11,364 nucleotides of DNA from Planctomycetota bacterium (GTDB lineage Bacteria > Planctomycetota > Planctomycetia > Pirellulales > Pirellulaceae): the NCBI GenBank assembly GCA_019347795.1, contig JAHWKS010000075.1, positions 1 to 11,364 of the forward strand, written 5' to 3'. The position numbers and the translations under genes were made by a program. Numbering within the stretch: position 1 is the first letter of the stretch; each line of letters opens with the position of its first letter. The notes under the pieces are model-generated. The model had not been told where the DNA came from, searched no databases, and saw only the letters and a program-made list of their open reading frames with translations. Below are positions 1 to 11,364 of this stretch, one piece after another.

Positions 1-2
1 CC

Positions 3-428
3 CAGCGGCTTTCGATTGAGGATGCCGTGCGCCGCACGGACGAAGCCGTCGCCGCCAAAGATCGGGAGATCGCCGAGCTGCAGCGGATGCTCGACCAGCA
101 GTCGTCCACGCTGGGCGAGGTGGCCGTCGGGGCGCAGGCCATCGCCCACATGCTCGACCAGGACGAGATCGTCAGGCAGGAGCGCGAGAATCTCCAAAAA
201 GTGCAAGAGGAGTGGCGGCAGAAACTGCGGCAGGCGGAGGTGGACATCTCTCTGGAGCGAGCCAAGCTGGCTCGCGAGCGGAGCAAGCTGGAAGAGCAGG
301 TTCAGAACATCGAATCCGAACGCGCGCGGCTGGAAAGCGCCACCGGCGGCGCCGCCGGGGAAGCCGGCGCTAAAAAAGCCAACCGCCGCTGGCTGGCCCG
401 CCTGGGACTCAAAGAAGACGAGCAGTAG
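3..428 (+). CDS. Coiled-coil protein, C-terminal part (partial, cut by left edge)
   Basis: The reading frame is open from the first bases of the window to a TAG at 426-428. The true start is therefore probably to the left, and the GTG at 27 is only an internal candidate. The visible 141 codons are rich in Glu, Arg, Lys, Gln and Ala with heptad-like spacing, for example DREIAELQRMLDQQ and LEEQVQNIESERARLE, which indicates a long alpha-helical coiled coil. A Gly/Ala-rich linker follows (GGAAGEAGAKK), then a basic/hydrophobic tail ending RRWLARLGLKEDEQ. No catalytic motif or membrane segment is visible. It could be a structural or scaffold protein, or the tail of a larger protein whose functional domain lies upstream. 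I do not recognise the family with certainty. A palindromic repeat begins three bases after the stop. Confidence 0.7.
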   Translation, partial: QRLSIEDAVRRTDEAVAAKDREIAELQRMLDQQSSTLGEVAVGAQAIAHMLDQDEIVRQERENLQKVQEEWRQKLRQAEVDISLERAKLARERSKLEEQVQNIESERARLESATGGAAGEAGAKKANRRWLARLGLKEDEQ

Positions 429-430
429 CT

Positions 431-540
431 GTAGGGTGGGACAAGCGGTAGCGCAATCCCACGCGCGCGTTCTTTACAGCAGCGGCCCCGCCGAAGTGTT
501 CGCGTGGGACTGCGAATCGGCTTCTTCGGCCCGCCCTAAC
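431..540. repeat. Nested imperfect palindrome after the coiled-coil gene
   Basis: Inner arms CGCAATCCCACGCG (452-465) and CGCGTGGGACTGCG (501-514) are reverse complements at 13 of 14 positions. An outer pair, TAGGGTGG (432-439) and CCGCCCTA (531-538), matches at 7 of 8. The whole can fold into a long interrupted hairpin just downstream of the stop at 428. There is no T-run, so a simple intrinsic terminator is not supported. A dispersed intergenic repeat or a miniature element is more likely. Its sequence is unrelated to the REP-like family elsewhere in the window. Confidence 0.5.
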
Positions 541-593
541 CGTCCCCAATATCTACGACCGCCTTGGAAGACATGAGGGTGATTGAAAGCGGC

Positions 594-683
594 GTAGCCG
601 CGGGCGCCGGCCCGCGCAAAATGTTAGACACGTTGTAATCGTGAGTCGCGAAGCACGATCCGCAGGCCGGCGCCCGCGGCTAC
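594..683. repeat. Inverted pair of REP-like palindromes
   Basis: A 19-base sequence, GTAGCCGCGGGCGCCGGCC (594-612), recurs as an exact reverse complement at 665-683. The left copy also forms its own hairpin, with stems CGCGGGC (599-605) and GCCCGCG (610-616) around loop GCCG. The 52-base spacer contains a third small hairpin, ATCGTG (638-643) with CACGAT (654-659). Two head-to-head REP-like units around a spacer is a BIME-like arrangement. The core is the same family as the repeats at 3871-3894, 4079-4102 and 4631-4654, with the loop GCCA changed to GCCG. Confidence 0.75.
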
Positions 684-704
684 CTGCTGACGCCGCTGTC
701 GATC

Positions 705-1511
705 ATGACGCTCGAACCGGTAAGCGACGTGAAACCTTCCAATCCTTTACCTCAGTGGAAGTTGCCGGCCGGGGTGACTCGCGGGCTTTGGGAGTACGTT
801 CACTCGCGGCCCGTGGCGGCGGATTATGATGCGTACTTTGCGGAGAACCAGCTCTTTGAGTTCGATCAGCAGGTGATCGCCCGCCATTTCCGCACGCCGG
901 GCGTGGTGGCCGATCTGGGGTGCGGCACCGCCCGGGCTTTGATTCCGCTTTGCCGGCGCGGGTTCCAAGGAATCGCGATCGATCTTTCGGAGAACATGCT
1001 GGCCGTGGTGCGGGAGAAGGCCGCCCGCGAGGATCTGCCGATCACCTGCGTGCAGGCGAACCTGGTGGAGCTGGGGCTGGCGGACGATTCAACCGATTAC
1101 GCCCTCTGCCTCTTCAGCACGCTGGGGATGATCCACGGCCGGGCCAACCGCCGGCGGGTGCTGGAGCACGTGCGCCGTATCCTCAAGCCGGGCGGCGTGT
1201 TTGTGCTGCACGTGCACAACTACTGGTGGAACTTGTACGACCCCGGCGGGCCGCGATGGCTCGTGACCAACTACCTGCGGGCGAAGCTGGTGAGGGACGT
1301 CGAGCCGGGGGACAAGTTCTTTCACTACCGCGGCGTGCACAACATGTTCCTGCACGTCTTCACGCGCCGGGAGCTGATCCAAAGCCTTCGCCAGACCGGC
1401 TTCCAGGTGCGCGAGGTCATCCCCCTGCACGCCACGCGGAAGCGCGAGCTGCGGCTCCCCTGGCTCCTGAGCAGCCTGCGGGCGAACGGCTGGATCGTGG
1501 TGTGCGAGTGA
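705..1511 (+). CDS. Class I SAM-dependent methyltransferase
   Basis: This 268-residue protein has the Rossmann methyltransferase signature. Motif I is VVADLGCGT at about residues 67-75. An acidic residue in AIDLSENML (D93) would bind the SAM ribose. The QANLVEL segment lies near 117-123, and the LKPGG loop before strand 5 at 160-164. The C-terminal part (HNYWWNLYDP, FHYRGVHNMFLHVFT) is rich in aromatics and His and probably forms the substrate pocket; it does not reveal the substrate. Pattern ordering fits Methyltransf_11/25-type enzymes acting on small molecules. The ATG at 705 has no clear Shine-Dalgarno and lies only 21 bases after a repeat, so the in-frame GTG at 729 is an alternative start. 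It stands alone on this strand, convergent with the STAS gene. The fold is certain; the substrate is unknown. Confidence 0.85.
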   Translation: MTLEPVSDVKPSNPLPQWKLPAGVTRGLWEYVHSRPVAADYDAYFAENQLFEFDQQVIARHFRTPGVVADLGCGTARALIPLCRRGFQGIAIDLSENMLAVVREKAAREDLPITCVQANLVELGLADDSTDYALCLFSTLGMIHGRANRRRVLEHVRRILKPGGVFVLHVHNYWWNLYDPGGPRWLVTNYLRAKLVRDVEPGDKFFHYRGVHNMFLHVFTRRELIQSLRQTGFQVREVIPLHATRKRELRLPWLLSSLRANGWIVVCE

Positions 1512-1543
1512 CACTCGCAACCCCCTAACGTCTTCGGGCCGCG

Positions 1544-1909
1544 TCAGTACGACGACAAGGCCTCGGCGGGCGTGGCGTGGATGTCCAAGACCTGGTTGAA
1601 GCGCGTCGCCGCGAAGACTTCGTCGATGGCCGGCTTCAGGTTGCACAGCTTGAGCTTGCCCCCCGTGGCGTGCACGCGCTTTTGAAAGTTGATCAGCCGG
1701 TTCAGCGCGGCGCTGGACATGTAGTCCACGCGCGCCAGGTTCAGCAGAAAGTGCTGTCGCTCCCCCGACTCCAACAACGACGACAACTCCTGAGACAACT
1801 GTTGCAAGACGGTCGCCTCCCACAGCCGGTCGTCGCGGAACTCGACCACAGTAACGCGGTCCGCGCCGGACTGCGCTTGATAAACCTCGATGTGCTTCAA
1901 TTCGCTCAT
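1544..1909 (-). CDS. STAS-domain protein (anti-sigma factor antagonist-like)
   Basis: The 121-residue protein is essentially one STAS domain: a beta strand near 19-24, a helix (LQQLSQELSSLLES), LLNLARVDYMSSAALNRLI at about 55-73, and GGKLKLCNLKPAIDEVF. The segment YMSSAALN aligns with FMDSSGLG of SpoIIAA, putting Ser66 at the serine that partner kinases phosphorylate in that family; the following Ser is Ala here. Such proteins bind anti-sigma factors or act as switch subunits in partner-switching or stressosome-like systems. No kinase or PP2C phosphatase gene is adjacent in the window, so its partner is unknown. The ATG at 1909 is supported by GAGGT eight bases upstream. It is convergent with the methyltransferase and 179 bases downstream of the nucleotidyltransferase gene on the same strand. 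That 179-base gap holds no convincing gene. Confidence 0.88.
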   Translation of the reverse strand: MSELKHIEVYQAQSGADRVTVVEFRDDRLWEATVLQQLSQELSSLLESGERQHFLLNLARVDYMSSAALNRLINFQKRVHATGGKLKLCNLKPAIDEVFAATRFNQVLDIHATPAEALSSY

Positions 1910-2088
1910 GCCAGGCGACCTCGATCTTCACGCCCCTTGGGAACGGTGAACCACGGGATTGCCTCTTCGTCCCTAAGATTAACGAGCGGCGTCCGCGACT
2001 GCAAACCCGGCGCCCGATTTCTTGGCCCTCGCGGGCGCGGGGCCTGCCTTGGGGGGTACAGTCCAGAGCGAGCCGAAGAGGGCCGTGC

Positions 2089-2838
2089 TTACGATCCTTC
2101 GCGAGGATCGAGATACTCCCACTCCCGCACGTCCGCTTGAAAATCGAAGTTCGAGAGGAGCGTGCCGCGGCAAACCGCGGCGTCGTCGGGCGCGGCGCGG
2201 GACGCGGCGAGCTGGCGGTCGAGAAGCTCCTCGATCAGCTCCCGCGGAATGAGCGACTTTTGACTGGGATAGATGTACTCGAACAAGATCAGGTGCGACA
2301 GCAGCACCGGCCAGTGGTCGCCGAAGCGGTCCACGAGCCGGCCCCAATCCAGCCGGTCGCCGCGGGCATGGATGAGGTGCGCCACGTCGGCCCCGTCGAA
2401 GCGGTGGCGGACCATGATGAAGCACTTCTGCCAGACCATCTCCTCCACCGGCGCGATCTGCACCGTCAGGTCGAGAACGTTGGCGTCCTCGCCGTGCGCA
2501 AACCAACTCTCGTCCACCGGACACAGGCCGTTGCCGGAGTTGTGGATGATGTCGATGAAGTCCTGGCCCGAATACACCTTGGAGATCCAGTTCGGCTCGG
2601 AAACCTCGCTGCGATACCCCGCCCCCTGGAGCGCATCGAGAATCCCGCGGACATCCTGGGGGAGCACGAAAAGGTCGATGTCTTTGGTGCGGCGCTGGAT
2701 GCCCGTGTAGAATTCGAAGGCGTAGCCGCCGCAGATCAGAAAGCGGAAGCCGGCCTGCTGGAGGCAGTCCAGGGCGTCGCGGTAGAATCGTCCCAGCTCG
2801 CCCTTGGGATGTCCGTTGCGGGGGTTGTGCAGCTTCAT
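2089..2838 (-). CDS. Nucleotidyltransferase-fold protein
   Basis: This 249-residue protein carries the DNA polymerase beta-type nucleotidyltransferase signature near its N-terminus. FLICGGYAFEFY (Gly37-Gly38) is followed by TKDIDLFV with the metal-binding pair Asp53-x-Asp55. A third candidate acid is Asp96 in DFIDII. The rest (VEEMVWQKCFIMVRHRFDGADVAHLI, then RLDWGRLVDRFGDHW) resembles the helical C-terminal part of stand-alone nucleotidyltransferase proteins that read like DUF6036/NTP_transf relatives. All three acids are present, so it may be active, but neither nucleotide nor target can be read from the sequence. It is not beside a HEPN gene, so it is not an obvious MNT/HEPN toxin-antitoxin pair. 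The start at 2838 has no strong Shine-Dalgarno. It is divergent from the metallophosphoesterase across 164 bases, where promoters for both are expected but cannot be placed. Confidence 0.75.
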   Translation of the reverse strand: MKLHNPRNGHPKGELGRFYRDALDCLQQAGFRFLICGGYAFEFYTGIQRRTKDIDLFVLPQDVRGILDALQGAGYRSEVSEPNWISKVYSGQDFIDIIHNSGNGLCPVDESWFAHGEDANVLDLTVQIAPVEEMVWQKCFIMVRHRFDGADVAHLIHARGDRLDWGRLVDRFGDHWPVLLSHLILFEYIYPSQKSLIPRELIEELLDRQLAASRAAPDDAAVCRGTLLSNFDFQADVREWEYLDPREGS

Positions 2839-3002
2839 GGGCGACCGTCGCGGCCTTTCTGCAAACTCACGCGCGCTCGCTTGCGAGAGTCGGTTAGAAG
2901 GCAGAACTCGTTACTCATGGAGTGTGAAAGCGGCAAAAGCCGTGCCACGTGGAATGGGGTTTGCACACCTTTGGCGGGATTCCGCCTGAAAAAGGAGTCG
3001 TT

Positions 3003-3779
3003 ATGTCTGCACCCAACGGCCGGCTGCGGGTCGGCGCCGTCGGCGACATCCACTTCGGCCCCCGGTCGGAGAGCATTCACGGACTGCTGGCCCACGCTGA
3101 TCAACACGCCGATGTGCTCCTCCTCTGCGGCGACGTGACCAACCGCGGACTGCCGGAGGAGGCCGAAGCGCTGGCTCGCGAGCTGCACAGCGTCAAGATT
3201 CCCGTGCTGGCGGTGCTGGGGAACCATGACTACGAGTCCGACCGGCAGAAGGAAGTGAGCGACGTTCTGGCCGACGCCGGCGTGAAGATGCTGGACGGCG
3301 ACTCGGTGGAGATCGGCGGGGTCGGTTTCGCGGGGGTGAAGGGCTTCGGCGGCGGCTTCGGCAAATGGGCCCTGGCCGCGTTCGGCGAGCCGTCGATGAA
3401 GGCATTCGTCCGCGAGTCGATGGAAGAGATGCTGAAGCTGGAAGTGGCCCTGGCCCGCCTCAAGACGGAGCGGCGAATCGTGCTGCTCCACTACTCGCCG
3501 ATCCAGGGCACCGTCGAGGGGGAGCCGCCCGACATCTACCCCTTCCTCGGCTCCAGCCACCTGGAAGAGCCGCTCAATCGCTACGAGGTGACCGCTGCCT
3601 TCCACGGCCACGCCCACCTCGGCCACCTGGAAGGGAAGACGCACGCGGGCATTCCCGTCTACAACGTCGCCGAGCACGTCCTCCGCCTCGCCAACCCCGA
3701 CGCCCCGCCGCTGAAGATCGTCGAAGTGCCGCTCACGGATGAGGATGCGACCGTCGTCGGAAAGGAGAGGGAACGCTAA
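3003..3779 (+). CDS. Metallophosphoesterase (calcineurin-like)
   Basis: The protein (258 residues from this start) has the full set of calcineurin-like phosphoesterase motifs in order: GDIH (Asp15, His17), GDVTN (Asp44, Asn47), GNHD (Asn74, His75, Asp76), LLHYSP (His163) and GHAH (His203, His205). These residues hold a dinuclear metal centre that hydrolyses phosphomonoesters or phosphodiesters. The substrate is not evident. A Gly-rich stretch (GVKGFGGGFGKW, about 111-122) and the helix after it replace part of the standard core. The ATG at 3003 is preferred over a start at 2949 because GGAG lies about six bases upstream and the motif GDIH then falls at the usual distance from the N-terminus. 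No signal peptide is seen, so the enzyme is probably cytoplasmic. It is divergent from the nucleotidyltransferase gene and followed by a repeat island. Confidence 0.88.
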   Translation: MSAPNGRLRVGAVGDIHFGPRSESIHGLLAHADQHADVLLLCGDVTNRGLPEEAEALARELHSVKIPVLAVLGNHDYESDRQKEVSDVLADAGVKMLDGDSVEIGGVGFAGVKGFGGGFGKWALAAFGEPSMKAFVRESMEEMLKLEVALARLKTERRIVLLHYSPIQGTVEGEPPDIYPFLGSSHLEEPLNRYEVTAAFHGHAHLGHLEGKTHAGIPVYNVAEHVLRLANPDAPPLKIVEVPLTDEDATVVGKERER

Positions 3780-3846
3780 TGAACGCTGATCCGCGCTAAG
3801 GAGTGAATGACGCGCCTCGCGATGTGCCGTCGGATTACCGGCGATC

Positions 3847-3894
3847 GTAGCCGCGAAGCGGCGGCAGCATGTAGCCGCGGGCGCCAGCCCGCGG
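3847..3894 (+). repeat. REP-like double hairpin, copy A
   Basis: The unit has two adjacent hairpins. The first is GCCGC (3850-3854), loop GAA, GCGGC (3858-3862). The second is CCGCGGGC, loop GCCA, GCCCGCGG ending at 3894, an eight-base-pair perfect stem. A short linker, CAGCATGTAG, joins them. The last 30 bases are repeated exactly in reverse orientation at 4079-4108 and 4631-4660. It lies 67 bases after the metallophosphoesterase stop. Confidence 0.85.
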
Positions 3895-3925
3895 ATTGGG
3901 AGCGGAAATAGAATGCTCCTAGCCC

Positions 3926-3948
3926 TAGCCGCGAAGCGGCGGCAGCAG
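3926..3948 (+). repeat. REP-like partial copy B (first hairpin only)
   Basis: TAGCCGCGAAGCGGCGGCAG plus three more bases matches the first hairpin of copy A in the same orientation. The second hairpin is missing. It has the C-G form of the variable base pair seen in copy A. The stretch from 3780 to 4189, outside the repeat copies, shows no convincing gene. Confidence 0.75.
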
Positions 3949-4035
3949 GGCCTTGCGATCTCGTGTTGCCCGGTGCGGTGACTCACGCCGGGTGGTGGAT
4001 TGCGCGGCGCCTGATTGCTCGTGACGTCGAGCCTT

Positions 4036-4124
4036 GCTGTCGCCGCTTCGCGGCTTTGCGAATCGATGCCGCTCGATACCGCGGGCTGGCGCCCGCGGCT
4101 ACATGCTGTCGCGGCTTCGCCGCT
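4036..4124 (-). repeat. REP-like block on the 3' side of the transposase remnant
   Basis: Two parts lie in reverse orientation to copy A. Positions 4036-4055 form a partial first hairpin. Positions 4079-4124 form a complete double-hairpin unit, identical over 46 bases to 4631-4676. The segment between them also resembles the spacer of the right-hand block: CCGCTTCGCGGCTTTGC occurs at 4043-4059 and again at 4596-4612. Weaker similarity seems to continue to about 4145. The block therefore has a homologous partner in the same orientation on the other side of the transposase remnant. Confidence 0.85.
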
Positions 4125-4189
4125 GGGGACTCGCCCCGAAGCGGATTCCTGGAACCCGCTTCGCGTTCCGTGAGAGCGCGTCATCGCGA

Positions 4190-4594
4190 TTAGCCGTGAT
4201 GCTCATCTTCGAAGAGATGGCGTCGGTCGAATTGAATGCCGTGCCGCCGGAGAAACTCCATGTACTCCTCCTCAAACGTTCGCGTCCGGTGATGCTCTGA
4301 CTGGTTGGCGATATATCGCCGGACCGATTCGATCTGAGAGTAGCTGACGGTGAATGCAGCATAACCTTTTTGCCATTGGAAACGCTCGCTGAGAATGGTT
4401 AGCCCGTTCACCCGTTTCGACGCGTTCGCCTTGATTTCGCGAATCGAGTCCGAAACGGCCGACGTCGGGGCGAGGTTGGCCAGCAGATGCACGTGATCCT
4501 CAACCCCGCCGATCTGAATGAGATGCCCGCCCCGCCCACGCACCGTGCCGCCGATATATTCATACATCCGCTCCCGAAATTCCTCGCGAATGGA
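4190..4594 (-). pseudogene. IS200/RAYT-type Y1 transposase, N-terminally truncated
   Basis: From the first internal ATG (4567) the frame gives 125 residues typical of the Y1_Tnp/IS200-like family, best matching REP-associated tyrosine transposases. The HUH motif is His25-Val-His27 in EDHVHLL. RFQWQKGYAAFTVS follows at about 62-75. The likely catalytic tyrosine is Tyr85 in VRRYIANQ with Gln89, then EHHR and FEEEYMEFLRRHGI. Family members usually begin with a strand like HIVFSTKNR about 25-35 residues before this region. Here the frame upstream reads SIREEFRER and then runs into the repeat block, with a TGA at 4625-4627, so that first strand is absent. This makes a 5'-truncated, probably inactive copy, although the catalytic residues remain. 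Known family members bind REP hairpins and perform single-strand transposition. Confidence 0.82.
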
Positions 4595-4595
4595 A

Positions 4596-4676
4596 CCGCT
4601 TCGCGGCTTTGCAAACCTATGCCGTCAATTCCGCGGGCTGGCGCCCGCGGCTACATGCTGTCGCGGCTTCGCCGCT
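4596..4676 (-). repeat. REP-like block on the 5' side of the transposase remnant
   Basis: It contains a half hairpin (4596-4612) and a complete double-hairpin unit (4631-4676), the latter exactly repeating 4079-4124 in the same orientation. The first hairpin is GCGGC, TTC, GCCGC (4663-4675 region) and the second is the eight-base-pair GC-rich stem at 4631-4650. The transposase remnant's homology stops where this block starts. Degraded similarity to the left block continues a little past 4676 (GGGCTCGC-type sequence). The remaining bases to 4807 presumably hold the otsB promoter; none can be placed firmly. Confidence 0.85.
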
Positions 4677-4807
4677 GCGGGCTCGCTGCGAAAGTGATCC
4701 GAAACTCACAGTTCGGCGAAGATACACGTGGCCGTGCGGAACGTGTTATGCTTTTCTCTTCTCACCGCTTTGCCGCGTTCCTATGATTGTGATGGCAAGA
4801 AGGCATC

Positions 4808-5605
4808 ATGCGTTCCGCACTAGAGCAGCAATCAAGTATCGCCGAGGTTCTTCGCAATCGTCAGTTGGCGCTGTTGCTTGACTACGACGGCACGCTCACG
4901 CCCATCGTCCGCCGGCCGGAAGATGCGATTCTCCCCGAGTCGGTGCGGGAGCTGCTTCGCCGGTTGGCGGGGCGTTGCACGGTGGCGGTCGTGAGCGGGC
5001 GGGACCGCAGGGATGTGGAAAAAATGGTGCAAATCGACTTGCTCACGTACGCTGGCAGCCACGGCTTCGACATTCACGGGCCGGAGGTGCAGATGGAGCA
5101 CGAAGAGGCCCGCCGGGTGCTGCCGGATCTGGATCGGGCGGAGGCGGAGTTGCGGGACTCGCTGACTGCCACCGCCGGCGCTCGCGTGGAGCGGAAACGC
5201 TTCGCCATCGCCATCCACTATCGGGAAGTCGAAGCCGAGGAGGGCGTTCGCCGGGTGGCCGCGATCGTCGAGGAGGTCCGCGGCCGGCATGGCGCGCTGC
5301 GGAAGCTGGGCGGCAAGAAGATCTTCGAGCTGCAGCCCGACGTGCCGTGGAATAAAGGATACGCGGTGATGTTCCTGCTGGAATCGCTCGGCCTGAACCA
5401 TCCCGGGGTGGCGGCGATCTACATCGGCGACGATGAGACCGACGAGAACGCCTTCCGGGCCTTGGAGTCGCGGGAGGCGAGCTTCGGCATCCGCGTCGCC
5501 TCGCCGGAGGAGGCCAGCGCCGCCGCGTACTACCTTCGCGACTGCGGCGAAGTCGAGACGTTTTTGCGCCGGCTGCTCACGTCGCTCGATCCGCCAGAAC
5601 GCTGA
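4808..5605 (+). CDS. otsB: Trehalose-6-phosphate phosphatase
   Basis: The enzyme removes the phosphate from trehalose 6-phosphate to give trehalose, the second step of the OtsA-OtsB pathway for a cytoplasmic compatible solute. The 265-residue protein is a HAD-superfamily phosphatase of normal family length. It shows DYDGTL with nucleophile Asp25 and acid/base Asp27, SGRD (63-66), GSHG (83-86), ERKRFAIAIHYR (128-139) in the cap, ELQP (174-177), WNKG with Lys183, and GDDETDE (207-213) for magnesium. All expected catalytic residues are present. The ATG has GAAGG a few bases upstream. No otsA (GT20 synthase) is in the window, so the first step must be encoded elsewhere or the substrate may differ. 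A small membrane protein gene follows after 97 bases on the same strand. Confidence 0.92.
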   Translation: MRSALEQQSSIAEVLRNRQLALLLDYDGTLTPIVRRPEDAILPESVRELLRRLAGRCTVAVVSGRDRRDVEKMVQIDLLTYAGSHGFDIHGPEVQMEHEEARRVLPDLDRAEAELRDSLTATAGARVERKRFAIAIHYREVEAEEGVRRVAAIVEEVRGRHGALRKLGGKKIFELQPDVPWNKGYAVMFLLESLGLNHPGVAAIYIGDDETDENAFRALESREASFGIRVASPEEASAAAYYLRDCGEVETFLRRLLTSLDPPER

Positions 5606-5688
5606 AGCCGGACAACGCAAGATTTCGCCGCCACGTCCGAATTGCTGATAGCTCGTTGATTTTCATTCCCATCGCGCCGCCGGGCGCC

Positions 5689-5694
5689 AGGAGG
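5689..5694 (+). promoter_or_regulatory. Ribosome binding site fixing a TTG start
   Basis: AGGAGG lies eight bases before the TTG at 5703. It is a full Shine-Dalgarno core at optimal spacing, and it decides the start because no ATG in this frame occurs near the N-terminus. Confidence 0.75.
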
Positions 5695-5702
5695 CAACTG
5701 CG

Positions 5703-5915
5703 TTGAATGCTGAACAAGGTTCTGCCGGTAACGTCATCGCCGCAATTTGCAGCTTTCTCTATCCGGGGCTGGGCCAGTTGGTTCAGGGAAGGCCGATTGC
5801 GGCGCTGATCCACTTTTTGCTCGCCACCGTGCTGTGGTTCATCCTGCTGGGATGGATCATGCACATCATCTCGACGCTCGACGCCGCCTGGTATTCGCGC
5901 CGCGGAAAGTACTAA
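5703..5915 (+). CDS. Small membrane protein (YPGLGQLVQGR type)
   Basis: The 70-residue protein starts at TTG behind a perfect AGGAGG. It has a short polar N-terminus, a hydrophobic segment around VIAAICSFLYPGLGQL (11-26) and a second at about 33-57 (ALIHFLLATVLWFILLGWIMHI). It ends with a basic tail (YSRRGKY), expected in the cytoplasm. The motif PGLGQLVQGR between the two segments resembles TM2-type small proteins, in which two helices are joined by a Gly-rich turn. I recall similar short proteins in many planctomycetes, but no function is established that I know of. It may be co-transcribed with otsB. Its stop is only three bases from the stop of the convergent zinc-ribbon gene. Confidence 0.8.
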   Translation: MNAEQGSAGNVIAAICSFLYPGLGQLVQGRPIAALIHFLLATVLWFILLGWIMHIISTLDAAWYSRRGKY

Positions 5916-5918
5916 CGC

Positions 5919-6152
5919 CTACCGCGCATCGGGATCGAGCGTCTCGATCTCCTGCGGCTTGAGAGGATGGTCGCACTTGGGGCAGCGGCGATCGAGCGGC
6001 GATACCACCGCCCGGCAGTGCGGGCAGTGCATTACGTCCCGGTGCGGACGGCCGGCGCCGCGCGTGGTCAGGCTCATGGCGACCAGCAAGACCGCGAATG
6101 CGATTCCCACGATTGCCAGACCCAACAGCAGGAGCATCCAGGAAATGCTCAT
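5919..6152 (-). CDS. Membrane-anchored zinc-ribbon protein
   Basis: The 77-residue protein has one N-terminal membrane helix (about 5-27, MLLLLGLAIVGIAFAVLLVA). A cytoplasmic zinc ribbon follows with Cys43-x2-Cys46 and Cys57-x2-Cys60 (HCPHC, RCPKC). The tail is acidic. Four well-spaced cysteines support metal binding; nothing indicates an enzyme. Its ATG overlaps the TGA of the upstream receiver-like gene in an ATGA junction (6149-6152), so translation is probably coupled and the two proteins may work together. Similar short ribbon proteins often bind partners rather than nucleic acid, but no partner can be named. It is convergent with the small membrane protein gene across three bases. Confidence 0.8.
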   Translation of the reverse strand: MSISWMLLLLGLAIVGIAFAVLLVAMSLTTRGAGRPHRDVMHCPHCRAVVSPLDRRCPKCDHPLKPQEIETLDPDAR

Positions 6153-6532
6153 TGCTCGCCTTTCTGCAGCACGGCCCCCAGCCGTTCGGTCGTCTCCGGG
6201 GCGTCCAGACTTGCCTTGCCGAATCCCGGCAGAGCCCCGGCTTCCACGGCAGACTGCTGATGATCCGGGAAGTTGGTGATCAGCATCACGGGCGTTGCGG
6301 CCAAAGCGGCGTCGGATTTCATCTCTCGAATGATGTCGATGCCGTCGCTGTGATCGCGATCGAGCTTACGGTTGACCAGCACCAAGTCGAACGGTCCCTC
6401 CCGCAGCGCCGCCAGGGCCTCCCAGCGAGTATGGGAAGCGACCACCTTGGCGTCAAACCGCCCTTCGATCAATCGCCGCAAAGCACCATGATCGGCGGCA
6501 CAATTCCCCACGTCAAGTACTCGCTTAGTCAT
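6149..6532 (-). CDS. Receiver-like (pseudo-receiver) protein with Asn at the phospho site
   Basis: The 127-residue protein has the (beta-alpha)5 pattern of a single receiver domain: RVLDVGNC at strand 1, KVVASHTRWEALAAL, FDLVLVNRKLDRD at strand 3, PVMLITNFPD at strand 4 and GFGKASL at strand 5. The conserved Thr/Ser-like residue (Thr86) and Lys106 are kept. The phosphoacceptor Asp is Asn54, and the usual acidic pair after strand 1 is replaced (DVGNCAADH). Phosphorylation by the ordinary mechanism is therefore unlikely, and the protein may signal by binding instead. I recall VNRKLDRD-type proteins as recurring in planctomycetes, which argues against a chance mutation. There is no output domain. 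GAGGAG lies a few bases before the ATG, and the stop overlaps the zinc-ribbon start. Confidence 0.82.
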   Translation of the reverse strand: MTKRVLDVGNCAADHGALRRLIEGRFDAKVVASHTRWEALAALREGPFDLVLVNRKLDRDHSDGIDIIREMKSDAALAATPVMLITNFPDHQQSAVEAGALPGFGKASLDAPETTERLGAVLQKGEQ

Positions 6533-6683
6533 TTAACTCCTCATGCTCATTGGACGAACTACATCCCTCGAATATGAAGCATACCCCCCCGATAGTAGTG
6601 ACAACGGTAGTTTTTTTCCTATCGCGATTTGCGGTTATCCACATGCAGCCACCCGCCGTCTGTGGTCGATTCCACCACTACTT

Positions 6684-6744
6684 AACGGCTCGTCACGCTC
6701 GCGTTGGGGCGCTTCCGCGGAAGTGCGAGCGGTGATGAGCCGTT
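6684..6744. terminator. Long stem-loop between sigma factor and receiver genes
   Basis: Arms AACGGCTCGTCACGCTCGC (6684-6702) and 6725-6744 pair with one bulge and one mismatch. The outer eight base pairs (AACGGCTC with GAGCCGTT) are perfect. Inside is the 12-base palindrome CTTCCGCGGAAG (6712-6723). Six T residues (6743-6748) follow on the plus strand. For minus-strand transcription from the sigma gene, whose stop is at 6748-6750, the hairpin comes directly after the stop but lacks a good U-run. It may still end that transcript or protect its 3' end. Read on the plus strand it is a classic terminator, though no plus-strand gene ends here. Confidence 0.55.
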
Positions 6745-6747
6745 TTT

Positions 6748-7371
6748 TCATGCTGACTCCTCCCCCAGCATCTCCCGCAGGCGGCGAAGCGCCCGCAGGT
6801 AACGCATGCTGGCCGCGGGCTGCGTCAGCCCGAGGGCCGCGGCCACTTCCTGGTTGCTCAACTGCTCGAAGTGCCGCATGATGACGACCTCGCGGTCGTT
6901 TTCCTCCAGCTCCTCCAAGGCGGCCTGAAAGCGTCGGGCCAACTCCCGCATCGTCGCCTCCGCGGCGGGGGTCCGCTCCATGTCGCGGATTTGGGCGGCC
7001 AGGTCCATTGTCGAGCGGTCATCGGCCTGAGGGACCGCCAGCCGCTGCTCCCGATCGACGCTCCGCTTGCCCGACACACGGTGCCGGCGATGGGAGTCGA
7101 TGATGCGATCGCGGGCGATGCTCCGCAGCCAGAGGTGGAACGGCATGGCGGGATTCTGCAGGTAGGCTTCGAGCCGGCGGTTGGCGTCCAGCAGGGTGTC
7201 TTGCACCACGTCGCTCACGTCCACGCGCCGCTGAATCTTCGGGTCCAGCCGCATCTGCACCAGCCGCCGCAGCGCATCCCGATGCCGCTCCAGCAGCCGA
7301 TTGACCGCCTCGCGATCCCCGCCGCGGGCGGCCTGGAGCAGTTCATGCGTCTGTTCGGTTTCGGGCCACAT
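6748..7371 (-). CDS. ECF-type sigma factor (planctomycete type)
   Basis: This 207-residue protein has a region 2 with AVNRLLERHRDALRRLV, SDVVQDTLLDANRRL (53-67) and MPFHLWLRSIARDRIID (76-92). A linker follows, and then a region 4 with ALEELEENDREVVIMRHF and the helix-turn-helix LSNQEVAAALGLTQPAASMR (171-190), which would contact the -35 element. The HRRHR segment after region 2 and the MWPE start are features I associate with planctomycete ECF sigma factors. It would direct RNA polymerase to a set of stress-related promoters. No anti-sigma factor gene is adjacent. The preceding terC gene ends 27 bases upstream, so it is probably read on a terC transcript. No clear Shine-Dalgarno precedes the ATG, because the space is taken by a short tandem repeat. 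Confidence 0.88.
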   Translation of the reverse strand: MWPETEQTHELLQAARGGDREAVNRLLERHRDALRRLVQMRLDPKIQRRVDVSDVVQDTLLDANRRLEAYLQNPAMPFHLWLRSIARDRIIDSHRRHRVSGKRSVDREQRLAVPQADDRSTMDLAAQIRDMERTPAAEATMRELARRFQAALEELEENDREVVIMRHFEQLSNQEVAAALGLTQPAASMRYLRALRRLREMLGEESA

Positions 7372-7375
7372 GAGC

Positions 7376-7394
7376 GAATGCGGAATGCGGAATG
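7376..7394. repeat. Tandem GAATGCG repeat in the terC-sigma spacer
   Basis: GAATGCG occurs at 7376-7382 and 7383-7389, followed by a partial copy GAATG at 7390-7394. It occupies most of the 27 bases between terC and the sigma factor gene, where a ribosome binding site would be expected. Confidence 0.7.
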
Positions 7395-7398
7395 ACGC

Positions 7399-8208
7399 CT
7401 ATCCGTGTTCGGCGGCAAGCTCCTCCTTCGTTCTTAATCTTCGCAGGCGGAGCCGCGTGTTCAACATCTCGACGATCACGCTGAAGGTCATCGCGAAGTA
7501 AATGTAGCCCTTGGGCACATGGATTCCCGTCCCCTCGGCCGTGAGCATCACGCCGATCAGCACCAGGAAGCTCAGGGCGAGCATCTTCAGCGTCGGGTGC
7601 CGGTGGACGAAATGGCTCACCTTCTCGGCGAAGATGATCATCACGGCGATGGCCAGGATCACCGCCACCACCATCACCGCCAGTTGATCGGTCATGCCCA
7701 CGGCCGTGATGACCGAGTCGAGCGAGAAGATGATGTCCATCAGCGCGATCTGCACCAGCACGCCGGTGAAGCTGACCGCCTTGGCGCCGTGCGTGTCGTG
7801 CTCGACTCCCTCCACTTCCCGGTGAATCTCGAGCGTGGCTTTCCAGACGAGGAACAGCCCTCCGCAGAGCAGGATCAGGTCGCGGATGGAAATCTCGTTC
7901 ACTTCCTCGTGCCCGGCCAGCCAGCTCGTGAACACGCCCGCTCCCTCCAGCTCGAAGAGCGGATCATCGAGCTGCATCACCGCACTGATGGAGAACAACA
8001 GGGCGATCCGCATTATTAAAGCCAGCCCCAGCCCCAGTCGCCGGGCATTGGGCTGCTGGTCCTCGGGGAGCCGGCCGGTGAGGATCGAGATGAAGACGAT
8101 GTTGTCGATCCCCAGCACGATCTCCATCACGGAGAGAAAGAAGAGCGCCACGAGGGCGTCCAGCGGGTTCTGCAGGATGTTCTGGAACGATTCGAGAATG
8201 GCGCCCAT
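7399..8208 (-). CDS. TerC-family integral membrane protein
   Basis: The 269-residue protein has about seven membrane segments and the TerC-family acidic motifs inside them: MEIVLGIDNIVFISIL (28-43; Glu29, Asp35, Asn36) and ALMDIIFSLDSVITAVG (156-171; Asp158, Asp164). Charged residues of this kind inside the membrane are thought to bind divalent metal. Family members are linked to tellurite resistance and, in better-studied cases, to manganese export and metal loading of secreted proteins. The C-terminal half (IIFAEKVSHFVHRHPTLKMLALSFLVLIG) is typical, and a basic cytoplasmic tail ends the protein. It is divergent from the cardiolipin synthase across 69 bases that presumably hold both promoters. 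The ECF sigma factor gene follows after 27 bases on the same strand, suggesting an operon and perhaps a link to envelope or metal stress. Confidence 0.92.
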   Translation of the reverse strand: MGAILESFQNILQNPLDALVALFFLSVMEIVLGIDNIVFISILTGRLPEDQQPNARRLGLGLALIMRIALLFSISAVMQLDDPLFELEGAGVFTSWLAGHEEVNEISIRDLILLCGGLFLVWKATLEIHREVEGVEHDTHGAKAVSFTGVLVQIALMDIIFSLDSVITAVGMTDQLAVMVVAVILAIAVMIIFAEKVSHFVHRHPTLKMLALSFLVLIGVMLTAEGTGIHVPKGYIYFAMTFSVIVEMLNTRLRLRRLRTKEELAAEHG

Positions 8209-8277
8209 CGTCGGCGTCTCACGGGGTGGTTATGGTAGGGACACGAACAGAAAACGCCCCATCATAGTGAATCCGCC

Positions 8278-9732
8278 ATGTGGAGGGAACTTGCCGAGCT
8301 GTGGCCGCACGTGCTGTTCGTCATGCAAACCGCATTGGCGATCGCGGCTACCTGCCACGCCGCCACGCGGAAGCGGGAGGTGCGGGCGGCGATCGGCTGG
8401 ATCGGCGTGATCTGGCTCTCGCCGTTTGTGGGGGTGGCGCTCTATCTGATGTTCGGCGTCAATCGCATTCAGCGACGCGCCCAGGAAACCCGTGGCCGGA
8501 CCCCCCGCATCGCGCCGCCGGACCATGAAAGCGTCTGCCGGATCGAGCAGTTGGCGGTAGTCGCCGGGGACGAGCACGAACGGATTCAGCCGCTGGTCCG
8601 CTATGTGGACCGCGTGACCGACGTCCCGCTCCTGGCCGGCAACCGCATTGAGGCGCTCTGCGGCGGCGAGGCCGCATACGGCGCCATGATCCGCGCGATC
8701 GATGAGGCCGAGCATTCGGTGACGTTGAGCACCTTCATCTTCGAACGCGACCAGGGCGGTCAGATGTTTTTGGAGGCGCTGCAGCGAGCCGTCGCGCGGA
8801 AGATCGAGGTCCGCGTGCTCGTGGACGCCGTCGGCTCGCGATGGTTCTCCTGGCCTTCCATCTACCGCCGACTCAAGCGGGCTGGCGTGCGGACCCGGCG
8901 GTTTCTTCCCTCGCGACTCCCGTGGCGGCTTCCCTACGCCAATCTCCGCAATCATCGCAAGGTCCTCGTGTGCGACGGCCGGATCGGCTTCACCGGCGGG
9001 ATGAACATTCGCCAGGAGCACCTTTTGGAGTCGGGAGCGAAGCATCCGGTGCAGGACGTTCACTTCCGGCTGACGGGACCTGTGGTCGCGCACCTGCAGA
9101 AGGCGTTTGTGGAGGATTGGGAGTTCACCACGGGCGAACACCTGTCGGGCGAAGCGTGGTTTCCCGCGTTGGCGCCGGAAGGGGAGGCGCTGGCCCGCGG
9201 CATCGCCGACGGGCCCGATGAGAATTTTGAACGGGCTCGGCTGATCTTCGAGGGAGGACTTGCCTGCGCTCAGCGGTCGGTCCACATCGCTACGCCTTAC
9301 TTCCTGCCGGACCAGGCGCTGATCTCCAGCCTTTCAACCGCGGCGCTGCGGGGCGTGGAAGTGAAGATCGTACTTCCGCTCCACAACAACCATAAAGTCG
9401 TCCATTGGGCGTCGCTGGGGCAGATGTGGCAGGTTCTCCAGTGGGGCTGCAAGGTGTACTTCTCGCCGCCCCCCTTCGACCATACCAAACTAATGGTGGT
9501 GGACGGCCTGTGGAGCGTCTTCGGCTCGACCAACTGGGACCCCCGCAGTCTCCGTTTGAACTTCGAGTTCAATGTCGAGTGTTACGACCGTCGGCTCGCG
9601 ACCGAGTTGACCGAGCTGATCGAAACGAAAATCGCCGCCGCCACGCCCGTCCGGCGAGCCGACCTCGATGCACGCTCCTACGCCCAAGTGCTTCGCGACG
9701 GCGTTGCACGGCTTGCGTCGCCCTACCTCTGA
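8278..9732 (+). CDS. cls: Cardiolipin synthase (phospholipase D family)
   Basis: Bacterial cardiolipin synthases of this type condense two phosphatidylglycerol molecules, or related lipids, at the membrane. The 484-residue length is normal for ClsA-like enzymes. Two N-terminal membrane segments (about 10-28 and 40-60, with WIGVIWLSPFVGVALYLMFG) form the PLDc_N anchor. Two HKD catalytic motifs follow. The first is HRKVLVCD (His226, Lys228, Asp233) within NLRNHRK, then GFTGGMNI. The second is HTKLMVVD (His402, Lys404, Asp409), then FGSTNWDPRS. Both are complete, so the enzyme should be active. The ATG at 8278 puts the first membrane segment at the N-terminus as expected, though no strong Shine-Dalgarno is visible. 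It is divergent from terC, and its stop is 20 bases from the stop of the convergent glycosyltransferase gene. Confidence 0.93.
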   Translation: MWRELAELWPHVLFVMQTALAIAATCHAATRKREVRAAIGWIGVIWLSPFVGVALYLMFGVNRIQRRAQETRGRTPRIAPPDHESVCRIEQLAVVAGDEHERIQPLVRYVDRVTDVPLLAGNRIEALCGGEAAYGAMIRAIDEAEHSVTLSTFIFERDQGGQMFLEALQRAVARKIEVRVLVDAVGSRWFSWPSIYRRLKRAGVRTRRFLPSRLPWRLPYANLRNHRKVLVCDGRIGFTGGMNIRQEHLLESGAKHPVQDVHFRLTGPVVAHLQKAFVEDWEFTTGEHLSGEAWFPALAPEGEALARGIADGPDENFERARLIFEGGLACAQRSVHIATPYFLPDQALISSLSTAALRGVEVKIVLPLHNNHKVVHWASLGQMWQVLQWGCKVYFSPPPFDHTKLMVVDGLWSVFGSTNWDPRSLRLNFEFNVECYDRRLATELTELIETKIAAATPVRRADLDARSYAQVLRDGVARLASPYL

Positions 9733-9752
9733 ACGTTTCCATCTTCCATTGT

Positions 9753-10706
9753 CTACGGCAGCACTTCCTGGAGGAGCGATTGCCAGCTTTCCCGTTCACG
9801 CTGGGGGCTGATGAGCGGAATCAGCCGGGCGCACCTTTGCGCCAGGTCTTGATAGAACTCGGAATCGCATTCGCACCGGCGGAGCAAGTCGGCCAGCCGT
9901 AGGGTGTCGCCGACCGGGAAGAAGCCGGGGTAATCCTCGCCCAACAGGCCGATCGAGCCGGAAATCCGCGAGGCAACGACCGGCGTGGAGGCCGCCGCCG
10001 CTTCGGAGATGACGTTGGCGCCTCCTTCCATCCGCGACGTGAGCGCGATCAGGCGGCTGCGGGCCAGGCGCCGCAGCGCTCGCCCACGCGGGAGTTCGCC
10101 CAGCCATAGATAGCGCGGGTTCCGCTCCATTTCCGCCCGCGCCCGAACTTCCATTTCCCGGCTGAGGGCCGCCCCCAGGTGAACGACGCGAATGCGGGAC
10201 TCTCGCGGCAATCTCCGCGCCGCCAAAGCGGTGCGGAAGGGATCCTTGACCGGACGCAGGTGCCCGATGACGCAAACCTCGAAGACCTGCTTGAGCGGCG
10301 GAGGCGGATTGCGGGGCGGCGCCGCCGATTGGTAAATCACGCGCGCCTTCGCCCGAAATCGCGGCGGCAATTCGTTCAATCCATGCGGCTGAAGCAGGAC
10401 CAGCCGCATCGCCAGCTCCAGCGATTTCCGCGCCGCGGCGCTGCGGTGGATGTCGCCGTAGAGGTCGGTGCCGGTCAGCGCCAGGACTATCGGCCTCTCA
10501 GGAAAGCTCTGATGGAACCGCGCCACCGCGGGAGCGCTCTTGCGGGCGTGCAGGGCGAGCAGCAGGTCGGCGTTCTGATCGCCGAACGCTTCGCCGATCT
10601 CGACGTGTGCGCCGAGCGACCGCAGGATTCGCGACCAGCGCTGGGCGGTGATGCGATTCCCCTTGCTGGAGCCCTTCGGCGCGGGGGTGACGATCAGCAC
10701 TCGCAT
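9753..10706 (-). CDS. senB: Selenosugar synthase SenB-like glycosyltransferase
   Basis: The 317-residue protein is a GT4-like glycosyltransferase with the N-terminal motif VTPAPKGSSKGNRITAQRW, LTGTDLYGDIH (78-88), HLRPVKDPFRTA (149-160), WLGELPR, and the nucleotide-sugar motif EGGANVISE (Glu227 and Glu235, an E-x7-E). This order and these motifs fit the family formerly annotated only as a conserved glycosyltransferase and later shown to be SenB. SenB uses selenophosphate and a UDP-sugar to make a selenosugar for selenoneine. Its start is seven bases after the stop of an EgtB/SenA-like gene on the same strand, as expected for senA-senB. No senC (SelD-like) is in the window. The ATG has only a weak ribosome binding site, so translation coupling to senA is plausible. 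It is convergent with cls. The family call is from memory of its motifs, not a search. Confidence 0.82.
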   Translation of the reverse strand: MRVLIVTPAPKGSSKGNRITAQRWSRILRSLGAHVEIGEAFGDQNADLLLALHARKSAPAVARFHQSFPERPIVLALTGTDLYGDIHRSAAARKSLELAMRLVLLQPHGLNELPPRFRAKARVIYQSAAPPRNPPPPLKQVFEVCVIGHLRPVKDPFRTALAARRLPRESRIRVVHLGAALSREMEVRARAEMERNPRYLWLGELPRGRALRRLARSRLIALTSRMEGGANVISEAAAASTPVVASRISGSIGLLGEDYPGFFPVGDTLRLADLLRRCECDSEFYQDLAQRCARLIPLISPQRERESWQSLLQEVLP

Positions 10707-10713
10707 GCCAAGC

Positions 10714-11364
10714 TCAGTCGCCTAGGGCGCAGGTGCGAAAGCCGGCCCAGACGTCGCGCCGGTCCGGAGTGTAGAAGTTCCGCCAGGTGTTGCGGATCAG
10801 CCTCGAGCGCGTTGCCCAGCAGCCTCCGCGGAGCACTTTCCGCGTTCCGAACCACGGCCGCGAGTATTCCCGGTAGGGATCGGGCGTAAACGCCGGATAC
10901 GGAAGAAAATTGCTGGCCGTCCACTCCCAGACGTTGCCGATCATCTGCCGGCAGCCGAAAACGCTGTCCCCCCCGGGCAACTGGTGAACATCGACTGCGC
11001 CCAACCTGCATCCGTCGAGATTGGCCGCGTCCGGCGCGGGAGGATCATCCCCCCACGGGAATCTTTGTTTCCGCTTGATCGCGACGCCGTCCGGCGGATT
11101 GGAGACGGCCGAGGCGGCCAATTCCCATTCCGCCTCGGTGGGCAATCTTCGCCTCGCCCACCGGCGCCACGCTTCGGCCTCGAACCAGTTGACGTGGATC
11201 ATCGGCCGACGCGGCTCGAGCGGCCGCCAGCGATCGAAGTCCCGCCGCTCCCATTCCCCGGCCCCTTTCCGCCGCCAGTATGTCGGCTGCATCGTGGCGG
11301 TCGACTCCCGCCACTTCCAGCCCGCCTCGCTCCAGAACTCGCGCCGGCCGTACCCCCCCTCCTC
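10714..11364 (-). CDS. senA: SenA/EgtB-type SUMF1-domain enzyme, C-terminal half (partial)
   Basis: The frame is open from the right window edge (minus strand) to a TGA at 10714-10716, giving 216 visible residues; the N-terminus is outside. The visible part is an FGE-sulfatase/SUMF1 domain: PRRPMIHVNWFEAEAW, RLPTEAEWELAA (73-84), FPWGDD, MIGNVWEWTAS (141-151), VLRGGCW and RNTWRNFYTPDRRDVWAGFR (191-210). RNFY-x-PDRR-type endings are typical of the EgtB branch. EgtB joins hercynine to a sulfur donor. SenA, its relative, joins hercynine to a selenosugar in selenoneine synthesis. The metal-binding HX3HXE site belongs to the missing DinB-like N-terminal domain and cannot be checked. The SenA rather than EgtB assignment rests mainly on the SenB-like gene seven bases downstream. 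A plain EgtB or another SUMF1 protein remains possible. Confidence 0.75.
   Translation of the reverse strand, partial: EEGGYGRREFWSEAGWKWRESTATMQPTYWRRKGAGEWERRDFDRWRPLEPRRPMIHVNWFEAEAWRRWARRRLPTEAEWELAASAVSNPPDGVAIKRKQRFPWGDDPPAPDAANLDGCRLGAVDVHQLPGGDSVFGCRQMIGNVWEWTASNFLPYPAFTPDPYREYSRPWFGTRKVLRGGCWATRSRLIRNTWRNFYTPDRRDVWAGFRTCALGD

Follow-up and report, generated by a model that had tools for sequence, protein, structure and literature searches.

The question raised by this locus is whether a planctomycete encodes a route to selenoneine, a selenium-containing antioxidant, and, if so, from where the selenophosphate for it would come. The stretch of DNA analysed here (the window, 11,364 nucleotides) belongs to a genome of 5.92 Mb in 976 contigs, 72% complete and assigned to an uncultured member of the Planctomycetota. 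An earlier note, made from the letters of the window, had placed a SenB-like glycosyltransferase gene seven bases downstream of an EgtB/SUMF1-type gene, in the order expected for selenoneine biosynthesis. The spacing is confirmed (Table 1), and the order is also the usual one: among 70 senA-senB loci, chosen by SenB similarity and with flanks of at most 6 kb that often end at contig ends, senA lies upstream of senB on the same strand in 62.

Table 1. Predicted features of the senA-senB locus.
Feature	Position	Strand	Description	Family or basis
Window	1-11,364		entire contig C397 (11,364 bases)	
senB, selenosugar synthase (Se-glycosyltransferase)	9753..10706	-	complete, ATG start, 317 aa, Cys145, no in-frame TGA	TIGR04348
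Spacer, senA stop to senB start	10707..10713	-	seven bases	sequence
senA, C-terminal half	10714..11364	-	216 aa, frame open at window end	NF041186
senA, N-terminal half	contig C189 (locus L015), 2970-3692	+	at end of 3693-base contig	NF041186, profile 4-218

A senA gene probably divided between two contigs

Since the window comprises contig C397 entirely, the upstream gene breaks off at the contig's end. Its C-terminal half reaches 244 bits with the SenA model NF041186 (profile 221-382), and either half alone scores below the cut-off of 420. When the halves were joined with XX between them, the score rose to 497 bits, while the same joined protein reached 327 bits with the EgtB model (cut-off 360) and 119 bits with the OvoA model (cut-off 400). 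The comparison with SenA and EgtB proposed in the earlier note thus comes out on the side of SenA. The DinB domain and the HX3HXE site that it named are both found on contig C189: the N-terminal half contains a DinB_2 domain (47 bits) and a three-His iron site made up of WEMGH and HEDMHAE.

The two halves could stem from different genes or organisms by an error of binning or assembly, in which case the senA of the window would be truncated. The bin is fragmented and incomplete, and the ends of C189 and C397 share no exact overlap from 9 to 150 bases. However, the window genome holds six matches to NF041186, namely one N-terminal half and one C-terminal half, each stopping at a contig end, a full-length EgtB on C573 that remains under the cut-off (357 bits), and three partial matches of 21-57 bits. 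Moreover, the number of residues missing between the halves is exactly two in all 68 homologues that match both. We therefore consider such an error unlikely, and infer that C189 and C397 join into one senA.

On C189 a divergent sulfatase gene lies ahead of senA, and behind senB there is a convergent cardiolipin synthase gene. A profile search of both contigs detected no selD or senC. The remark in the earlier note that senC is not visible is therefore correct for C397 and C189, but its absence is nothing unusual: selD was found within the locus in at least 11 of the 70 senA-senB loci, a number that may be too low as flanks are cut and a distant SelD can escape detection, and with so few cases a missing senC is the usual state. 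The window also harbours an IS200-like (Y1_Tnp) transposase gene (4190-4567), with palindromic repeats in both inverted and direct orientation on its flanks (594-683, 3846-3951, 4031-4140 and 4596-4692). Gene and repeats resemble a REP-associated transposase.

The glycosyltransferase is a SenB

With the family model TIGR04348 the window SenB reaches 406 bits (E 8e-122, cut-off 300), the next family following at 114 bits. All four matches in a PDB search were SenB or TIGR04348 chains, the best with E 2e-64. Judged by its sequence, the protein is a SenB and not an ordinary GT4 enzyme, as the earlier note had supposed. It retains N17, T20, H53, T78, T80, Q126, R151, K154, E227 and E235, which are N20, T23, H58, T83, T85, Q131, R155, K158, E231 and E239 in the numbering of the characterised SenB; the residues described there as important include K158, N20, T23 and E231 (PMC10891094, in the part of the paper available). 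Selenophosphate and a UDP-sugar are the predicted substrates.

Three substitutions were noted, K56 for R61, A210 for T214 and N231 for H235. As a consequence of the last one, the motif reads EGGANV, sharing five of six letters with the EGGAHV that the accessible part of the literature reports for SenB-like enzymes, mainly beta-proteobacterial ones. Asparagine is common at this site: in 68 SenB rows whose locus includes a senA- or ovsA-like gene, it occupies the H235 column in 63 of the 66 rows with a letter.

SenA, OvsA or EgtB

The ovs cluster for ovoselenol contains a homologous iron enzyme (OvsA, PDB 8u41 and 8ux5), and OvsA-like genes also adjoin senB. Conceivably, the pair is ovsA-senB and selenium is transferred to histidine instead of hercynine. 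Among solved structures both halves come closest to OvsA (189 and 125 bits), with SenA behind it (155 and 77 bits), and senB adjoins an ovsA-like gene three times in the same phylum. The SenA model alone does not decide the matter, since L163, a protein of the OvsA clade, passes its cut-off with 429 bits. In a tree of 73 rows, where the SenA from the PDB is a long branch, the PDB OvsA and proteins L163, L170 and L176 of the same phylum form a separate clade (SH-aLRT 100), while the window SenA sits outside it; its nearest rows by path are L091, L068, L060 and L058, all from egtD loci, and L078 from a selD locus, although its own fork is weakly supported (89, in no starred set). At 10 of the 11 columns that separate SenA from OvsA, the window protein agrees with SenA, and at none does it carry the diagnostic OvsA letter. 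Further, egtD is present in 24 of the 70 senA-senB loci compared with 0 of the 3 ovsA loci, and the window genome carries EgtD. Ovoselenol as the product is thus very unlikely. The identification of the upstream gene as a SenA distinct from OvsA is supported by these sequence comparisons, and hercynine is its predicted substrate. Loci L163, L170 and L176, in which the ovsA-like gene adjoins senB, are possible ovoselenol loci in their own right.

That the upstream gene is a sulfur-transferring EgtB or a formylglycine-generating enzyme for the nearby sulfatase, standing beside the glycosyltransferase gene by chance, is hardly credible: it matches the FGE-sulfatase domain and the divergent sulfatase gene is its neighbour on C189, but it exceeds the SenA and not the EgtB cut-off, contains the DinB_2 domain, shows the conserved order with senB, and the genome has a separate, clear EgtB (579 bits).

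Probable supply of hercynine and selenophosphate

The EgtD-type methyltransferase that the earlier note expected elsewhere was found on contig C573 (397 bits), where its gene is adjacent to that of the separate EgtB. The window genome thus contains, besides the senA-senB pair, an egtB-egtD pair of the ergothioneine type with a homologous iron enzyme; the window gene differs from it by its score below the EgtB cut-off and by the senB that follows.

The only SelD over the cut-off in this genome is part of an oxidoreductase-SelD fusion on contig C143. Its oxidoreductase part matches TIGR03169 with 366 bits (cut-off 310) and its SelD part reaches 257 bits (cut-off 125); the fusion also matches the model 'fusion_not_SelD' with 442 bits, which is below the cut-off of 700. 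SelA is present (547 bits), and thus this SelD would be shared with selenocysteine synthesis. This agrees with the proposal in the earlier note that selenophosphate might come from a housekeeping SelD, and suggests that a single SelD encoded elsewhere could supply the synthesis of selenocysteine as well as that of selenoneine. SelU was not found in the bin, but since the bin is 72% complete, the absence of SelU and of a stand-alone SelD proves little. A genome of the same family, G353, encodes a stand-alone SelD and a second SelD in a fusion-like frame of 808 aa; accordingly, the stand-alone SelD may be missing from the window genome through incompleteness. We also considered the fusion as a special partner of SenB. 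This idea was dropped, because many genomes of the class without SenB also have SelD matches within open frames as long as the fusion (about 740-860 aa).

Building on the observed gene identity, gene order, catalytic residues and further genes of the same bin, we propose the following route, in which all reactions as well as the operon as a transcript are predictions. SenB would convert selenophosphate and a UDP-sugar to a selenosugar, and SenA, a non-haem iron enzyme, would transfer the selenium of this selenosugar to hercynine, giving selenoneine. Hercynine would be supplied by the EgtD of the genome, and selenophosphate by the SelD encoded elsewhere, which selenocysteine synthesis via SelA would draw upon as well. 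Overall, we assign a probability of about 85% to the reading that senA and senB form a two-gene selenoneine operon of a planctomycete, an organism that would thus carry the gene set for this compound.

The locus resembles senABC of Variovorax paradoxus (PMC9814287, PMC10891094, as far as the available parts of these papers show) in the catalytic residues of SenB, in the SenA-type enzyme and in the adjacency of senA and senB. It differs from it by the lack of an adjacent senC, so that the cluster is no complete senABC (SelD is encoded on C143), and, compared with what is accessible of the same papers, by EGGANV in place of EGGAHV and K in place of R61.

Occurrence of the pair in planctomycetes

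SenB exceeds the cut-off in 36 of the 392 genomes of the phylum. In 25 of these a gene passes the SenA cut-off, which in one case (G132) lies in the OvsA clade. The others are the window genome with its split senA, two genomes with matches at the EgtB level only (about 331 bits) and eight with nothing above 110 bits. Based on these counts, SenB is more often accompanied by SenA than not across the phylum. In the class of the window, 22 of 297 genomes have a SenB at 1e-60, 20 of them over the cut-off; a SelD above its own cut-off occurs in 153 of 297. SelD is commoner among the SenB genomes of the class, with 21 of 22 (the exception is G467), than among the 275 remaining ones, with 132 (Fisher p 7e-6).

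The earlier note held the occurrence in this lineage to be worth recording. The pair is indeed present, but this was already implied by database names, since NCBI lists SenB of planctomycetes (P0032, Gemmataceae bacterium; P0086, Planctomycetaceae bacterium). In the literature searched we found no paper that treats selenoneine together with planctomycetes. The window pair encodes a selenoneine route and is in itself ordinary; what is newer, and the only source of interest beyond plain annotation, are the senB genes without senA and those with an in-frame TGA among its relatives.

senB genes without senA

In the class, senA stands beside senB in only 3 of 22 loci (the window, G562 and G625), where G561 and G602 were judged from loci L071 and L082, which have identical SelD coordinates, and the flanks of L071, L198 and L200 are short. 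No senA was detected elsewhere in the genome in G353, G561 and G602, the senA-less genomes of the class that were searched. A similar picture emerged from 25 loci of named planctomycete genomes, of which four have senA in the locus. Among the other 21 genomes, whose completeness is not given, 18 lack any SenA/EgtB match at 1e-60, two show matches at the EgtB level and one has a SenA elsewhere. SelD was found in 20 of these 21 and in 17 of the 18 without any SenA/EgtB match (senB loci L054, L056, L069-L072, L074-L076, L079, L080, L082, L083, L087, L088, L110, L113 and L120). In the class of the window, senA is mostly not beside senB, yet hardly any of these genomes lacks SelD; the selenosugar may therefore go into an as yet undescribed product.

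In 41 senA-less SenB rows above 220 bits the catalytic letters are nearly always kept, with K158 in all 40 rows that have a letter there, and dN/dS ranges from 0.09 to 0.29 (24 pairs from 13 loci, some with saturated dS). Purifying selection on senB in genomes without a SenA/EgtB match suggests that the selenosugar has a further use. In trees with many open forks, the window SenB is placed near senA-less SenBs, and on the second SenB tree the linkage to senA changes at least 13 times, the linkage label of four protein rows being inferred. An all-against-all comparison revealed no conserved partner of senA-less senB across groups, only genes shared by related loci.

In one locus of the window's class, L204 (G627), senB lies directly behind a TGA-containing selD, with no senA in the locus. 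Divergent SenB-like genes were also seen in L177-L182 and L184-L187; they score 110-171 bits against the window SenB, keep K158 and an EGGAN motif, and adjoin a gene which, by our reading, has an LpxA-like look.

In-frame TGA codons in senB

The window SenB was compared by tblastn with 158 loci, among them at least one duplicate genome (L116/L130), using the best match per locus (49,920 codons) and excluding the last eight residues. As inner stops these matches contain 14 TGA, in 14 of the 158 loci, and no TAA or TAG. When all matches were considered, two TAG were added: one belongs to a weak second match in L084, the other to the gene end of L117 (residue 316). In the SenA control (74 loci, 30,773 codons) TGA did not occur; the stops seen there were a TAG and a TAA near the start, at query residues 14 and 16. 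The excess of TGA in SenB over SenA is significant (p 0.0016). SelD is a known selenoprotein, and its domains had a TGA in 16 of 16 cases.

Twelve of the 14 TGA codons fall at recurring sites (in the numbering of the window SenB): residue 4 in Acidobacteria, Tectomicrobia and Planctomycetota (L065, L097, L193, L194 and L198), residue 145 in Poribacteria (L051, L064 and L078), residue 130 in Latescibacteria (L090 and L093) and residue 132 in Planctomycetota (L138 and L159). The two single ones, at residue 171 (L059) and residue 27 (L169), are possible errors. Cysteine occupies column 145 in 95 of the 158 loci and column 4 in 26, and none was seen at columns 130 and 132 among the letters listed; Cys is more frequent at columns 292, 46 and 239 than at column 4, yet TGA is absent from them. 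Cys or TGA at column 4 is associated with Cys or TGA at column 145 (28/31 vs 67/116, p 0.0006). Of the 14 TGA-containing genes, 11 keep all ten catalytic columns; in the other three, T83 is replaced by S (two genes) or H58 by N (one gene). Downstream of the TGA at residue 4, L097 (GTG) and L198 (TTG) have a possible start codon; L065, L193 and L194 have none within 20 codons.

All 7 genomes or loci examined out of the 14 with a TGA-containing senB decode selenocysteine: a TGA-containing SelD occurs in G428, G458, G589, G359 and G268 and in loci L078 and L093, and SelA is present in G359 and G268. The overall folding energy downstream of the 14 TGAs does not differ from controls (mean z -0.02, controls -0.22 and -0.12). 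A bacterial SECIS can be defined by a G in the first two loop bases, a position 16-37 bases after the codon and a stem of at least 4. By this definition, a SECIS-like hairpin is present at all 12 recurrent TGA sites, with the loop beginning 20-25 bases after the codon, although controls also have such hairpins. Its stability is above the median of TGA-less senBs at the same column in 12 of 12 cases (mean rank 0.22 vs 0.5), in a test that was chosen after the null result on folding energy and on sites that are not all independent (three are from Poribacteria). In the five loci with TGA at residue 4 Rfam gave no match; a hairpin with GGT at the loop, a definition likewise tried after the folding energy, is present in 3 of them and in 11 of 145 others (p 0.006).

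Based on these observations, we consider it fairly probable that SenB is an overlooked selenoprotein in scattered lineages, and that some Planctomycetota use it without SenA. Neither SenB nor TIGR04348 appears in the table of an inventory of 119 prokaryotic selenoprotein families (PMC13188914, 2026). The accessible parts of the literature searched contained no claim of SenB as a selenoprotein. Ordinary annotation would truncate the TGA-containing senB genes. If they do encode selenoproteins, selenocysteine serves the making of a selenium metabolite. The window SenB itself has Leu4, Cys145 and no TGA; it is the Cys145 counterpart of the TGA forms and among the few of its class still paired with senA.

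The EgtD control (28 loci) revealed a single TGA, at the query residue Cys72, in L149 (G096), where this TGA-bearing EgtD-like gene stands in a senB-egtD-senA locus.
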